NCBI GenBank assembly: GCA_014360845.1
Contig: JACIWR010000002.1
Span: 1-33,031, forward strand
Source of the DNA: Anaerolineae bacterium
Lineage (GTDB): Bacteria > Chloroflexota > Anaerolineae > JACIWR01
Reading direction: 5' to 3'
DNA length: 33,031 bases
Position 1 is the stretch's first letter; every line of letters starts with the position of its first letter. Below are positions 15,714-28,449 of this stretch, piece by piece. Under the pieces are notes generated by a model. It ran no database searches, was not told the DNA's origin, and saw only the letters and a list, made by a program, of their open reading frames with translations. Both the position numbers and the translations under genes were made by a program.

Positions 15714-16223
15714 TCACCCGCCAAAAGTTTGGAGCACGGTGCGTGGCGGGAAGGAGATAGCTTTCTGGGGGCAGATGCGGGCGCACTCGGTGCATTCCAC
15801 CTGGCACTTCAGAGGTGAGGCCACGTAGACTCTCCGGTCGTCCGTGGTAAAGTCGAACACCTTCTCGGGGCAGAAGGAGACGCACTTGCCGCAATTGTCG
15901 CAGAGGTCCTCGTAGAGGGTGGGGAACCAGGGGATCTGCTCGCGGGGGATGCCTCGCCAGGTGCCGTACTCGGTGCGGCAGGTGCAGCCGCTTTCTTGTT
16001 GCGCGCAATATTTGCGGTACTCCCGTAGCAGAGCTTCGGCATATTCTGCTTCGCCAGCAACGGGAATGTAGTTATCCTTCCGCGCCCGGGCCAGCAATTC
16101 TGGCACCAGTGCTTCATCCGGATCACGCCCTGCCTTATAGAACTCGGCGAACATCTCGTCCAGGCCGACCATGCCGGTCATGAAGCGCCCGACCAGGATC
16201 TGACGATAGCTTAATGTGCTCAT
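15714..16223 (-). CDS. Fusion of a small helical domain and a 2x[4Fe-4S] ferredoxin domain
   Basis: N-part VGLDEMFAEFYKAG..EYAEALLREYRKYCAQQ; C-part IPREQIPWFPTLYEDLCDNCGKCVSFCPEKVFDF...KCQVECTECARICPQKAISFP. Start taken as MSTLSYRQ. Confidence 0.85.
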   Translation of the reverse strand: MSTLSYRQILVGRFMTGMVGLDEMFAEFYKAGRDPDEALVPELLARARKDNYIPVAGEAEYAEALLREYRKYCAQQESGCTCRTEYGTWRGIPREQIPWFPTLYEDLCDNCGKCVSFCPEKVFDFTTDDRRVYVASPLKCQVECTECARICPQKAISFPPRTVLQTFGG

Positions 16224-16335
16224 CGGTATTCTCTGCCAGTCTTTCTCTGCGGCGGTTGGCAAAACCGCTCTGTTAGAACAAACGACTGCCGCTGATTTGT
16301 TGCATGCCTGCCCCAGGCACTTCGATCAGCACTTT

Positions 16336-21655: not shown

Positions 21656-22186
21656 TCAATGTCGTCGCCAGAGACCGCGCATTCCATCCAGGAACTCGGG
21701 CACGGTCTGGCGTGGAAAACGCGGCCAGGTGGCGATGACCACCAGGCCGATCCATCCCACGAGCAGCATCCCGTATGGGGGCGCCATCCGCCACGCGGTC
21801 CAAATCATAGTGCCGTAGGGCAGGGCCTGTAGTCCCCAGGCCAGGTGGACCGAGCCAAAGTGCCACAATGCCGCCGCTCCGGCGGCCACGTAGGCCACGG
21901 CCAGCCAGGGGGAGATGAACCCGGCCAGGGTCAGGTAGGCCCACACGCCCAGAGCCACGGTCATGTCCGCTTCCAGATCGTGGTCTCCAATCCAGGTGTG
22001 GATGCCACGCGGGTCACGACGGGCCAGAGGGCCGTCCAGTACGTCGCTGATCCAGGCGGCCAACAGCGTCAGAGCAGCGGTCGGCAACGCTGGCGATCCG
22101 CCGTGAAAACTCAGCCATATCAGGTACAATCCCAGCAGGAAACGGATACCGGTCAAGGTATCGGCTATGGTTTTGGTCTGGATCAT
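21656..22186 (-). CDS. CDP-alcohol phosphatidyltransferase family protein
   Basis: Membrane ORF with DVLDGPLARRDPRGIHTWIGDHDLEADMTVALGV, matching DGxxAR..G..D..D. Confidence 0.75.
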   Translation of the reverse strand: MIQTKTIADTLTGIRFLLGLYLIWLSFHGGSPALPTAALTLLAAWISDVLDGPLARRDPRGIHTWIGDHDLEADMTVALGVWAYLTLAGFISPWLAVAYVAAGAAALWHFGSVHLAWGLQALPYGTMIWTAWRMAPPYGMLLVGWIGLVVIATWPRFPRQTVPEFLDGMRGLWRRH

Positions 22187-22919: not shown

Positions 22920-23216
22920 TCACCGACCGGCTTGGTCCTTCTGCGCGCAAAAGGCAGCGTACTCGCGTAAAAGTGCCGCCTTGTATGCCTCCTCTGCTGA
23001 GCGCGGCACGTAATTCTGGGTTCTTATCATAGCCAATAGTTCGTCTTGTACCGATTCATTGGGTTCTAGCCCCAAAGCGTAAAGTTGCTCAAAGGCTGCT
23101 TGCAACCCGACTATTCCCACGGTCAGGCCATTGCCATAGATGTCCACCTGGGTGATGCTACTATCTCCGCCGCAGCAGCCGGCCGTTCGCCACATCATCG
23201 GTCCCCGTCCGGGCAT
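22920..23216 (-). CDS. Small helical protein with N-terminal CCGG motif
   Basis: TAGCCGGDSSITQVDIYGNGLTVGIVGLQAAFEQLYALGLEPNESVQDELLAMIRTQNYVPRSAEEAYKAALLREYAAFCAQ; resembles the N-part of the 15714-16223 protein. Confidence 0.75.
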   Translation of the reverse strand: MPGRGPMMWRTAGCCGGDSSITQVDIYGNGLTVGIVGLQAAFEQLYALGLEPNESVQDELLAMIRTQNYVPRSAEEAYKAALLREYAAFCAQKDQAGR

Positions 23217-23286
23217 GATTTCACCTCCTGATCACCGGGCCGAACAGGTGTTTCCCTCCGACGAACCAGTCCCGCTCATCCCAGAG

Positions 23287-23316
23287 GGGGACGCCGGAGT
23301 GCTGGCCGGCGTCCCC
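23287..23316. repeat. Hairpin GGGGACGCCGG-8nt-CCGGCGTCCCC
   Basis: Perfect 11-bp arms in the gap between the ferredoxin and small-protein genes; short TTT on the plus strand only. Confidence 0.65.
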
Positions 23317-23371
23317 TTTGTGCTTCTGCCGTGTTCCCAGAGTCGGGTCTTCTGGGAGAGGTAGGTGAACC

Positions 23372-23656
23372 TCACTCACTCTTGTACTGTTGCCTCAGCT
23401 CTCGGATGAGGGCCACTATCTCCTCTTTGTCCGGGAACTGGATGGCTTCCATGGAGCATATCTTAGCACAAGACTTGCAGAAGACCACGCAGTTAGTGGG
23501 ACGGGCTACCACGGGATGCCCATCGTTGTCATCCCAGTCGAAGACGTCGTTGGGACAGAACTCGTAACACTCCTGACAGCCCGCGCAAGAATCATAGTCA
23601 ATGGTGGGCCACCAGGGTATCTTTTCCCGGGGAATGTTTTGATATACCTGAGCCAT
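23372..23656 (-). CDS. 2x[4Fe-4S] ferredoxin
   Basis: IPREKIPWWPTIDYDSCAGCQECYEFCPNDVFDWDDNDGHPVVARPTNCVVFCKSCAKICSMEAIQFP. Confidence 0.92.
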   Translation of the reverse strand: MAQVYQNIPREKIPWWPTIDYDSCAGCQECYEFCPNDVFDWDDNDGHPVVARPTNCVVFCKSCAKICSMEAIQFPDKEEIVALIRELRQQYKSE

Positions 23657-23720
23657 GGGGGATCACCTCTCAGTCCAGGCGGGACGAGACAGAAGCTGGC
23701 CCGTCCCGCCTGTTGGTTTA

Positions 23721-24080
23721 TTAACCCAACTGGGCTATTGCCTCGGCCACTTTGTTGTAGGCCTCGTCAGTGGTCATGTTGCGCAGATCGAGGGAAACAA
23801 CTTGCTGGTCAAAGTTGCCCCCTACCTCGGCGAAAGCGTCCTTGAACATCTTGCGTTGCATGACGGGATCACAAGCGCCTACGACGTAGGTGTGGCCGGG
23901 CTTGGCGTAGTCCTGCCAGAAACGGTCGCCGTCTTCCACGCAGAGCTGGGGATGCACGATGGCATACTCCACGTCCAGCTCGGTGCGCACGCGGTTGATA
24001 AGCTGCCAAAGGTTCAGGCTTTGGAAGCCGGGGCACTCCCCGGTGCAGATGCACATCACGAATCTCGGTTTATCGGCCAT
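23721..24080 (-). CDS. Stand-alone HdrA N-terminal-like domain protein
   Basis: FVMCICTGECPGFQSLNLWQLINRVRTELDVEYAIVHPQLCVEDGDRFWQDYAKPGHTYVVGACDPVMQRKMFKDAFAEVG resembles the IC.CG...C...VV.ACSPR.HE..FR..L...G region of HdrA. Confidence 0.65.
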   Translation of the reverse strand: MADKPRFVMCICTGECPGFQSLNLWQLINRVRTELDVEYAIVHPQLCVEDGDRFWQDYAKPGHTYVVGACDPVMQRKMFKDAFAEVGGNFDQQVVSLDLRNMTTDEAYNKVAEAIAQLG

Positions 24081-24242: not shown

Positions 24243-25397
24243 TCACTTGCCTTGCCTTATATCAGGGACTGGGGGACAGGTGCAGGGTAGCCGATGATGG
24301 CGCTTCAACGTCCGCACCAGATAAGCTACCGCCAACCCGACCACGAAGCCCACGGCCATGTTGGTCGCTACGGAAAGGGCCGCGGTGAACAAGGCCAGGT
24401 ATAGCTTCCATCCCCGCAGCTTCACCACTACTCTGGCCAGCTCGATGCCCACCAGCAGCATCATCCCGCCCACCAGGGGCATGGGGAAGGCGGCCAGCAG
24501 ATTGCCCACCGAGCGGCTCAGGAACAATCCCAGGAAGAGCTCGATAATCCCCTCCAGGATGCTGGTGCCGCCGGTGCGCGCTCCAAAGTAATACTGCCCG
24601 GCCAAACCCCCGGCCCCGTGGCACATGGGCATCCCGCCAAAGAAGGAACTGACCACGTTCATGATGCCCATGTTCAACATCAACTTGTGCTCGCTGACCG
24701 GCTTCTCCGGGAAGTAGTCGCGAATCAGAGCCGCGGTGGCGATGACGGCATTGGTGATGGACAGCGGAATCTGGGCGAAACCGGCCAGCAACATGGCCCG
24801 CCAGACATCTTCTAGCCGGGGCACCGTCAACGGCGGCAGGGTCAGAGTCAACTCCAGCGAACCCCGCAGCTCCCCACGCCAAGCGATGATGCCTATCCCC
24901 AGGGCCATGAGCACAATGGACGCCGGGGCGTAGCGGTTCTGGCGCAGGGTGAGCACGATGATGACGGCCAACACTCCCAGCAGCGGGGCTGGTCGCATCA
25001 TCTTGAGCCCCGTCCAGGCCAGCGTTACGCCCAGGGCCAACTGAATGCCCCGCACCAGAAAGGTCGGCGTGATGGCGATGATCTTGCGCAGCGCCCCGCT
25101 GAAGACCAGCAGAAACCAGGTCAGGCCCAGACCGAAGCCCGAGGCGTAGACCAGCGAGGCCGGCCACTGTTGGGTGATGGCGGCCACGGCGATCACCTTT
25201 TTGGGTTGCAGGGGCATGGGCAGGCGGTAGATGAGCCCGATGGCGATGTTGGTCAGGCCCATCATCACGAACAGTCCCGCCGGATTGAGTCCGTTGACCA
25301 CGATGAAGCCGATGGCCAGGGGGAACAAGGTGCCGAAATCCCCCATGGACCCGGCCAGCTCCCGCAGGTTGAACTCGAAATCTTTGTGCTTACTCAT
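24243..25397 (-). CDS. Putative sulfate/molybdate transporter (MOT1-like)
   Basis: FNLRELAGSMGDFGTLFPLAIGFIVVNGLNPAGLFVMMGLTNIAIGLIYRLPMPLQPKKVIAVAAI and MCHGAGGLAGQYYFGARTGGTSILEG are characteristic of MOT1-type transporters. Confidence 0.85.
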   Translation of the reverse strand: MSKHKDFEFNLRELAGSMGDFGTLFPLAIGFIVVNGLNPAGLFVMMGLTNIAIGLIYRLPMPLQPKKVIAVAAITQQWPASLVYASGFGLGLTWFLLVFSGALRKIIAITPTFLVRGIQLALGVTLAWTGLKMMRPAPLLGVLAVIIVLTLRQNRYAPASIVLMALGIGIIAWRGELRGSLELTLTLPPLTVPRLEDVWRAMLLAGFAQIPLSITNAVIATAALIRDYFPEKPVSEHKLMLNMGIMNVVSSFFGGMPMCHGAGGLAGQYYFGARTGGTSILEGIIELFLGLFLSRSVGNLLAAFPMPLVGGMMLLVGIELARVVVKLRGWKLYLALFTAALSVATNMAVGFVVGLAVAYLVRTLKRHHRLPCTCPPVPDIRQGK

Positions 25398-25692
25398 CTC
25401 CGCCTTGGTCAGGCTGCGGTTTCAGCGATGACTCGGCTACGATGGTGCGTGCTCTGCCGGCCATAAGCACTTCTGCCACGGCGATGGCCTCTCGCATTTC
25501 CATATCACTGGCTCCCAATCTGCGCGCACGGGCAGAATGGTTCTCAAATCAGGGGCCGCATCCCGTGGCCAGGGCCACACTGAGCCCGATCAATTGCTTC
25601 GTCTTGCGGTCCAGTGCGCCGTCGGCGAAGACGGTGCGATAAAAATCAACGAACTTCTGATTGATTTCGGGATTGACCTCCAGCAGCGTCAT
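25390..25692 (-). CDS. AhpD/carboxymuconolactone decarboxylase-like protein, candidate selenoprotein (in-frame TGA at codon 48, CxxU)
   Basis: Manual minus-strand translation: MTLLEVNPEINQKFVDFYRTVFADGALDRKTKQLIGLSVALATGCGP[TGA]FENHSARARRLGASDMEMREAIAVAEVLMAGRARTIVAESSLKPQPDQGGDE*. The TGA (25549-25551) sits at the second Cys of the family CxxC...H motif; homologous sequence continues in the same frame. Overlaps the next gene's start. Confidence 0.82.
25515..25540 (-). promoter_or_regulatory. Candidate bacterial SECIS hairpin immediately 3' of the in-frame TGA
   Basis: mRNA-sense CCA-U-UCUGC-[CCGUGCGC]-GCAGA-U-UGG: 5-bp upper stem, U-U mismatch, 3-bp lower stem, GU in the apical loop; loop G is 20 nt after UGA. 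Confidence 0.6.
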
Positions 25693-25787
25693 CGCTCCCC
25701 TCCTTTGGGCAATTTACATGGGCGGCGTGGCGTCCGGTTTGTGGGGCGAGATGGCAGGCAGGGCCGTCCGCCGCTGCATTTTTGCTC

Positions 25788-26072
25788 TCAGCAGGTTTCT
25801 TCCAGCAATGAGAGGTGGTCTCCGTCTTGTAGCGGGGCCTTTTCATCGAAATTACGCACGGCATATCGCCCACCCACGTTCAGCAGGTAAGGCCCCACGA
25901 TGTCGTGTTTGTCTGCGGAGATAACCTCTCCCACCAACGCCGGCAGTGCCCGGGCCAGGGCGGCAAGCACATCGCGCCAGGTGGCCTCCTCGGCCACGGT
26001 GATGGTCACCTCTTTCCGGTCGGCTATGATCCGCGCCGGTCCGGTCAGCTCGACGATCAGTTGTTTGCTCAT
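25788..26072 (-). CDS. ThiS/MoaD-like ubiquitin-fold protein ending in ...LLEETC rather than GG
   Basis: MSKQLIVELTGPARIIADRKEVTITVAEEATWRDVLAALARALPALVGEVI...YLLNVGGRYAVRNFDEKAPLQDGDHLSLLEETC; AGGAGG RBS. Confidence 0.78.
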   Translation of the reverse strand: MSKQLIVELTGPARIIADRKEVTITVAEEATWRDVLAALARALPALVGEVISADKHDIVGPYLLNVGGRYAVRNFDEKAPLQDGDHLSLLEETC

Positions 26073-26104
26073 TCGTAATCCTCCTCGGGTGACAGTCACC
26101 TGAC

Positions 26105-27043
26105 TTATGCGGCCAGCATCCCGCGGATGATGACATCCACAGCCGTCTCCTCGTCCAGGCCGCGCGACATCAGCGTCTCCAGTTCTTTCTTGTTCACCGT
26201 GCCAATGGCCGCCTCGTGAGTCACATAGGCCCGGTCATCCCGCACCTTCACGATGGGGACGGCATTGGCCACGGCCCGATCGCGCACCACCTCGATGCAG
26301 TCCACGTGACCGCGGGCGAAGGGAGCGTTGCCCTCGGTGGCACCAATCACCTCGCTGGTGGCTTCATCCCGCACAGCGATGCGCGATTTGGCCAGCCCGC
26401 GCGCGTGTTCCCCGTTGAGGCGAATGGTCTCCTTGACCGTGATGGCGTCGTTCCCGTAGCCGTAGGCTTTGGCCACGAGTTCGGCCACGCCGTGGGCGGC
26501 CACGTCCACCACATAGTCGAAATCCAGCTTCCCCACTCGTCCCGTGGTCAGAGCGAACTCGGAGCTGTAGTACCCGCCCTCGTCCACCTTGACCTGGGCT
26601 TTGGGCACCACCTCCACGCCGCCGGCCTCACCGTGGTAATGAGTCTCAGCGTATTTCATGGTGGCGTTCTTGCCCACGTGGATGCGGGCCTCCATCAGGT
26701 GTCGCACGTTGACGGCGTTGGGGAAGGTGCAATGGGCGATGAACTCGGCCCGCGCCCCGTCCCCAATCTCAAACTCGGGCAAAATCTCCTGCACGCCCTC
26801 GGCGGGGATCACCCCAAAGCACAGGTGGGCCGGGATGTCCAGTTGTGCTCCGGGCTCAACGATGACCTTGACCCGCACGCCGTGCTCGATCTCCTCCGGC
26901 TCGATACGCACCCCTGGTACCTGGTTAGCTCCCAACACGCGGTTGCCGCTGATGACCAGGCTGGCCACTTTGGGCGAGCGCAGAAAGTTGGGATCACCTC
27001 CCGATCGCTCGTAGGCTTTCAGAATGGCTTCAAAGTCGCTCAT
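26105..27043 (-). CDS. SufB/SufD-family Fe-S cluster assembly scaffold
   Basis: YAETHYHGEAGGVEVVPKAQVKVDEGGYYSSEFALTTGRVGKLDFDYVVD, GATEGNAPFARGHVDCIEVVRD, VTHEAAIGTVNKKELETLMSRGLDEETAVDVIIRGML. Confidence 0.9.
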   Translation of the reverse strand: MSDFEAILKAYERSGGDPNFLRSPKVASLVISGNRVLGANQVPGVRIEPEEIEHGVRVKVIVEPGAQLDIPAHLCFGVIPAEGVQEILPEFEIGDGARAEFIAHCTFPNAVNVRHLMEARIHVGKNATMKYAETHYHGEAGGVEVVPKAQVKVDEGGYYSSEFALTTGRVGKLDFDYVVDVAAHGVAELVAKAYGYGNDAITVKETIRLNGEHARGLAKSRIAVRDEATSEVIGATEGNAPFARGHVDCIEVVRDRAVANAVPIVKVRDDRAYVTHEAAIGTVNKKELETLMSRGLDEETAVDVIIRGMLAA

Positions 27044-27846: not shown

Positions 27847-28218
27847 TCACTCACAGGGTTCCTGGCCTGTCTGACAGCGGGGACAGGTGCAGCCCGGCAA
27901 AGGGACTGTCAGGGCCAGGCCCGACTGCACTTCTATGCCCTGGGCGCGCAGGATGTCCTTCCCCAGCCGCAAGAAGTCGCCTACCCGCTCGTCGCTCAGG
28001 CGGTAATGGACCAGCAGCCCGTCCTTGCGGTCGGTGACCAGACCCGCCTTGCGCAGGGTGGTCAATTGCTGTGATATGTAGGGCTGACGTTTGTTCAGGG
28101 CGGCGACCAGGTGACAGACGCAGGCCTCTCCTTCACGAGCCAGCAGTTCGAGGATGCGCAGCCTGGTGGGATGAGCCAGAGCCTGGAATACTTTGGCCTG
28201 TTGTTGATATGTGTTCAT
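27847..28218 (-). CDS. ArsR-family regulator with Cys-rich C-terminal tail
   Basis: MNTYQQQAKVFQALAHPTRLRILELLAREGEACVCHLVAALNKRQPYISQQLTTLRKAGLV...PGCTCPRCQTGQEPCE. Confidence 0.93.
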   Translation of the reverse strand: MNTYQQQAKVFQALAHPTRLRILELLAREGEACVCHLVAALNKRQPYISQQLTTLRKAGLVTDRKDGLLVHYRLSDERVGDFLRLGKDILRAQGIEVQSGLALTVPLPGCTCPRCQTGQEPCE

Positions 28219-28237
28219 GCTGCTCCTATTTACTAGT

Positions 28238-28261
28238 CTATATTCGATTGATTGAATATAG
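28238..28261. promoter_or_regulatory. Candidate ArsR-type operator CTATATTC-GATTGATT-GAATATAG
   Basis: Perfect 8-bp inverted repeat 20 bp upstream of the ArsR start, with an ATATTC/GAATAT core. Confidence 0.75.
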
Positions 28262-28355
28262 TATACACCCTTTTGCAAATCTGTCAAATCGGCACGGGGG
28301 CCTCTCGCGGTTTGGGGCGGATGAAGTTGAGGTTTGCTGGGGGGTGTGGTACAAT

Positions 28356-28390
28356 GTGAGGCGTGAAACGTGAGGCGTGGAACGTGAAAG
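28356..28390. repeat. Short direct repeat GTGAGGCGTG(A/G)AAC x2 plus partial
   Basis: 28356-28369, 28370-28383 and GTGAAAG 28384-28390. Confidence 0.6.
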
Positions 28391-28449
28391 GCAACACGTG
28401 CTCGGCGAAACTGAACTGTGCGCAGCACATAGATTGAGGAGCAACCCTG

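Follow-up and report, generated by a model that had tools for sequence, protein, structure and literature searches.

Read with TGA as U, positions 25390-25692 on the minus strand of the window (the whole stretch of DNA analysed, 33,031 nucleotides) encode a CMD/AhpD-like protein, here termed CMD-U, in which UGA codon 48 is very probably read as selenocysteine; we put the probability of this reading at about 0.96. The gene comprises 100 codons followed by TAA, and the single in-frame TGA is the only interruption of the frame. The translation is MTLLEVNPEINQKFVDFYRTVFADGALDRKTKQLIGLSVALATGCGPUFENHSARARRLGASDMEMREAIAVAEVLMAGRARTIVAESSLKPQPDQGGDE*. Upstream of the gene, AAAGGAGGGGAGCG-ATG forms a strong Shine-Dalgarno site.

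25390..25692, minus strand: CMD/AhpD-like gene CMD-U, 100 codons plus TAA, predicted to encode a selenoprotein from the TGA=U reading, the Pfam match and conservation
25549..25551, minus strand: TGA within the frame at codon 48, predicted to encode the selenocysteine of CGPU, from the reading and the alignment of homologues
25693..25706, minus strand: Shine-Dalgarno region AAAGGAGGGGAGCG upstream of the CMD-U ATG, from direct reading
25515..25540, minus strand: possible bSECIS hairpin CCA-UCUGC-loop(CCGUGCGC)-GCAGA-UGG, a prediction that is not significant alone

The list of table-11 open reading frames contains none in this frame. The first-pass annotation had placed a candidate gene here (25692 to 25390, minus strand), with a TGA as codon 48 of 100 at the position of the second active-site Cys; these coordinates, the affected residue and the motif proved right. 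A six-frame scan of the window for CxxU motifs, requiring no fewer than 20 open codons ahead of the motif and 30 behind it and with out-of-frame GC-rich readings judged by eye, gave CMD-U as the sole credible match among the matches listed. No credible second hidden CxxU gene emerged from this six-frame scan, and the gap before the gene of the CCGG protein (listed further below) likewise held no credible hidden gene.

Family assignment and active site

Score, active-site motif (CxxC(U)xxxH) and all-helical fold all place CMD-U in the CMD/AhpD superfamily. The Pfam CMD domain (PF02627) matched residues 8-78 with E=5.6e-16 and 58.7 bits, above the curated cut-off of 23, and the AhpD core domain model TIGR00778 scored 49.8 bits against a cut-off of 27.8. 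The Pfam match runs across the TGA, which agrees with the earlier claim that CMD/AhpD sequence lies on both sides of this codon. The active-site motif is CGPUxxxH (C45-G-P-U48-xxx-H52). Of the 14 inspected loci of Cys homologues, every one has a Cys aligned with U48 and a His aligned with H52, and 13 have a Cys aligned with C45. An AlphaFold2 model computed from an eight-sequence alignment was all-helical, with a mean pLDDT of 85.7 and values of 96-98 in the surroundings of the active site. Its top matches in the PDB were CMD/AhpD proteins, with 3bey and RclX (7y4r) at the head, at moderate single-chain TM-scores of about 0.6.

Conservation of the TGA codon

The TGA codon is common to four genomes from three families: that of the window, G001 of the same genus, and G018 and G266, which belong to the same class and to other families. 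The copies in G001, G018 and G266 are 86%, 64% and 55% identical to CMD-U, respectively, and all three keep TGA at exactly codon 48, so that the comparison with TGC or TGT in relatives, which had been proposed earlier, comes out for TGA. Among the 396 genomes of the class, these four are the ones with CMD-U and its TGA; a scan of the contig collection gave only the G001 copy and one distant Cys homologue from Mesorhizobium. In G266 the motif is CQPU, followed by an intact frame up to the gene's own stop. The G018 copy shows a 1-nt deletion about 17 codons after the TGA (L004, about 1688-1692), beyond which the expected protein continues in the next frame. This frameshift is either an assembly error or the mark of a decaying gene, in which case the decay would be very recent.

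For the pair of window and G001, dN was 0.07 upstream and 0.09 downstream of the TGA, and dS was 0.87 upstream and 0.64 downstream. Judged by these rates, the codons on both sides of the TGA are under purifying selection, and the low dN relative to dS after the TGA therefore indicates that the downstream part is maintained as protein. The first-pass annotation had named decay around this site in close homologues among the observations that would speak against a selenoprotein; the downstream frame is instead under selection. Several features expected of a selenoprotein gene are present: the TGA is aligned with the Cys of homologues, similarity extends to both sides, and conservation in independent genomes is combined with selection on the downstream part.

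A rival reading takes the interrupted frame for a pseudogene, in which a nonsense mutation has inactivated a CMD gene of the Cys type, or for the result of a sequencing error at the TGA. It could draw on the use of TGA as an ordinary stop by neighbouring genes, on the additional frameshift in the G018 copy and on the failure to find tRNA-Sec in the own draft. We consider it very improbable: codon 48 is TGA across the three families, this codon coincides with the position of the catalytic Cys, and beyond it the window, G001 and G266 all keep an intact frame, a part of the gene on which purifying selection acts. Cross-family conservation has already largely refuted this rival reading.

Decoding of the TGA codon

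Selenocysteine at codon 48 is consistent with the gene content of the genome from which the window derives, a draft of 4.36 Mb in 578 contigs that is 89.9% complete. Its selA (589 bits), selB (337 bits) and selD (381 bits) all scored above cut-off. The selD gene (L028 1077-2126, G000:C189) itself carries an in-frame TGA (AAGUAAK), at what we take to be the canonical active-site position, so this genome evidently uses UGA for selenocysteine. With the Rfam model RF01852, tRNA-Sec was not found in the 89.9% complete draft; it was found, with anticodon TCA, in five relatives (G001, G018, G010, G027 and G054). On the contig syntenic to the selC region of G001, which carries other tRNAs, synteny breaks off some 180 bp short of the place where the gene is expected. 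The missing tRNA-Sec is treated here as a presumed gap of the incomplete draft. The sel genes that the first-pass annotation had put forward as a check were thus recovered as far as selA, selB and selD are concerned, but tRNA-Sec was seen in G001 and not in the own draft.

The frame is open whichever amino acid the TGA encodes, and decoding as Trp or Cys through a changed code, or suppression, would therefore also yield a full-length protein. Several genes adjoining CMD-U end in TGA, however, from which it follows that TGA is a normal stop and that the code is otherwise standard. Given also the presence of selA, selB and a TGA-containing selD, and given that Cys-to-Sec at CxxU is a known exchange in the CMD/AhpD family, we regard insertion of a residue other than selenocysteine as having a negligible probability.

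A bSECIS predictor had been suggested as a further check. A hairpin can indeed be drawn, with its apical loop 18-25 nt after the TGA, roughly the loop distance known for bacterial SECIS elements, but its stability did not exceed that of dinucleotide shuffles (z=-0.60) or synonymous-codon shuffles, which leaves the element weakly supported. Between the window and G018, 11/12 same-residue codons within the 14 codons after the TGA were nucleotide-identical, against 16/33 upstream (Fisher p=0.014), and this may be read as an indirect hint of a bSECIS. The synonymous constraint after the TGA was weaker and not significant in the window/G001 pair alone (p=0.13) and was absent in the comparison with G266. 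A bSECIS after the TGA of CMD-U is a plausible prediction.

Genes surrounding CMD-U

CMD-U lies within a putative operon on the minus strand, which is followed by further small genes.

27847..28428, minus strand: regulator of the ArsR type (HTH_5), first gene of the putative operon, with an uncertain start codon
27030..27785, minus strand: SufC-like ABC ATPase
26105..27043, minus strand: SufBD-core protein, resembling SmsB but far below the SmsB cut-off
25788..26099, minus strand: small ubiquitin-like/sulfur-carrier-like protein, weak SAMP1 match
24243..25397, minus strand: MOT1/SulP-type permease
23721..24080, minus strand: Cys-containing protein of 119 aa without a match in Pfam or NCBIfam, by eye like the N-terminal part of HdrA
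23372..23656, minus strand: 4Fe-4S ferredoxin
22920..23216, minus strand: CCGG protein of 98 aa, without a family match and conserved in the cassettes of both G001 and G018

The order ArsR, SufC-like, SufBD-like, ubiquitin-like carrier, CMD-U and permease is shared by the window and G001, and downstream of the permease both carry the 119-aa Cys protein, the ferredoxin, the 98-aa CCGG protein and an ArsR with DUF6951; G001 has extra genes around the ferredoxin. In G018 an ArsR gene lies directly upstream of CMD-U and a separate methyltransferase downstream, followed by most of the cassette. In G266, CMD-U stands between a homologue of the protein at window 21656-22186 and a TDT transporter, on a contig that also carries an ACR3-like protein, two DGC proteins, a dihydrolipoamide dehydrogenase-like ORF (recognised by sequence reading) and a GcvH-like lipoyl-carrier protein. 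AhpD is known to use lipoamide, and the last two proteins fit such a use by analogy; this pair lies outside the operon of the window.

The SufBD-like protein was present in 43 of the 396 class genomes and the 119-aa HdrA-N-like protein in 18. All four genomes with CMD-U also carry the SufBD-like protein, a co-occurrence that is suggestive only, as two of the four belong to one genus. Dependence of the whole cassette on the selenoprotein was considered and rejected on these counts, set against 4/396 for CMD-U with TGA: the cassette proteins are far more widespread, and CMD-U is therefore an optional member.

In G001 and G018, the two small Cys proteins of 98 and 119 aa are accompanied in the cassette by ferredoxin, SufBC-like and DUF59-like genes. 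Both of these genomes also have YlbF-like, CoA-binding and zinc-ribbon genes between the 119-aa and CCGG proteins, which are missing from the cassette of the window (22920-24080 compared with L046 11243-14230). Elsewhere in the window, the protein at 15714-16262 (minus strand) appears by eye to be a fusion of CCGG-protein-like and ferredoxin domains, which are separate genes in the cassette.

Proposed mechanism and role

The product would be a 100-residue, single-domain protein with the all-helical CMD/AhpD fold, probably oligomeric, into which the SelA/SelB/SelD/tRNA-Sec machinery would insert selenocysteine at UGA codon 48. By analogy with the family, the target of attack by Sec48 would be a disulfide or peroxide, or else an oxidised compound of sulfur or of a metalloid, and Cys45 would resolve the selenenylsulfide formed at Sec48. 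The C45/U48 pair would then be re-reduced by a cellular dithiol, presumably of the dihydrolipoamide type as for AhpD. The chemistry is, on this analogy, most likely that of a thioredoxin/AhpD-like reductase, acting as a selenol/thiol disulfide reductase.

As to its substrate, the company of an ArsR regulator, a SufC/SufBD-like scaffold, a ubiquitin-like carrier and a MOT1/SulP permease suggests that CMD-U serves sulfur/metalloid redox handling. We judge the chances of a role as sulfur/metalloid reductase to be about even. A peroxidase-type antioxidant role of the selenocysteine protein, AhpD- or RclX-like and functionally unrelated to the operon neighbours, deserves serious consideration, though we lean against it. 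None of the operon genes examined could be recognised as an AhpC-type peroxiredoxin, the curated families that come nearest in score include the arsenic-related ArsM_AhpD_UU and TIGR04169 (both below cut-off), and the SufBD-like protein carried by all four CMD-U genomes occurs in just 43/396 of the class, while the closeness of the fold to RclX (7y4r) and to AhpD-core structures, and the description of AhpD proteins as restoring oxidised peroxidases (PMC10460364), point towards the antioxidant role.

Starting with its ATG, the permease gene shares 8 nt with the end of CMD-U (window 25390-25397, minus strand), and the same overlap is found in G001. This suggests translational coupling between the two genes, and permease translation may therefore depend on successful insertion of selenocysteine. 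A more far-reaching proposal is that an uncharacterised sulfur/metalloid operon under ArsR control has CMD-U as its redox component and that UGA read-through also gates expression of the MOT1/SulP permease. This seems unlikely to us; if it were true, selenium supply would act as a switch for anion uptake via this permease.

Comparison with known CMD and AhpD-like proteins

Selenoproteins of the CMD/AhpD-like type with CxxU have been on record since 2005. The Sargasso Sea and GOS surveys (PMC1088965, PMC2398784) described CMD domain-containing (Pfam02627) CxxU selenoproteins, or AhpD-like 2, and CMD/AhpD-like CxxU selenoproteins are listed in a 2026 review (PMC13188914), as the first-pass annotation had rightly assumed in calling them an established concept. 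A literature search returned nothing on CMD selenoproteins of Chloroflexi, nor on AhpD selenoproteins with arsenic or ArsM.

CMD-U scored under the cut-off of every NCBIfam selenoprotein family. The GSU3128 family (seleno)protein model NF041047 describes, like CMD-U, small single-domain AhpD-like proteins with Sec members; it matched residues 25-87 only, at 50.6 bits against a cut-off of 110. The best-scoring matches were to the C-terminal AhpD-like domains of NF041537 (ArsM_AhpD_UU; E=1.9e-19, 69.7 bits, cut-off 510) and NF045649 (MduS; E=9e-16, 57.8 bits, cut-off 380), scores that cover the AhpD part only, as both families are methyltransferase fusions whereas CMD-U is a stand-alone domain. 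The arsenosugar biosynthesis-associated peroxidase-like family TIGR04169, which is also matched by the closest Cys homologues of CMD-U in the phylum, aligned with residues 4-81 at 56 bits, below its cut-off of 120; a radical-SAM arsenosugar partner could not be recognised in the CMD-U operon. To the full 177-position model of AhpD proper (TIGR00777) the score was 27.1 bits, far from the cut-off of 191.95. The closest solved structures by sequence and fold, RclX (7y4r) and O27018 (3bey), have Cys at the position of the predicted selenocysteine.

Compared by domain and motif, the Sargasso Sea and GOS proteins share with CMD-U the Pfam domain, the CxxU and the exchange of Cys for Sec at the second active-site Cys; CMD-U differs from them in that its lineage is of the Anaerolineae type and its operon is defined. 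It is probably a new subfamily within the already known CMD/AhpD selenoproteins. Gene callers using table 11 stop at the TGA, so that CMD-U is lost or truncated, and together with scores below every NCBIfam selenoprotein cut-off this means that it has likely been missed across the lineage. With its defined and partly conserved operon, this CxxU CMD subfamily offers a testable pathway for a selenoprotein family without established function.
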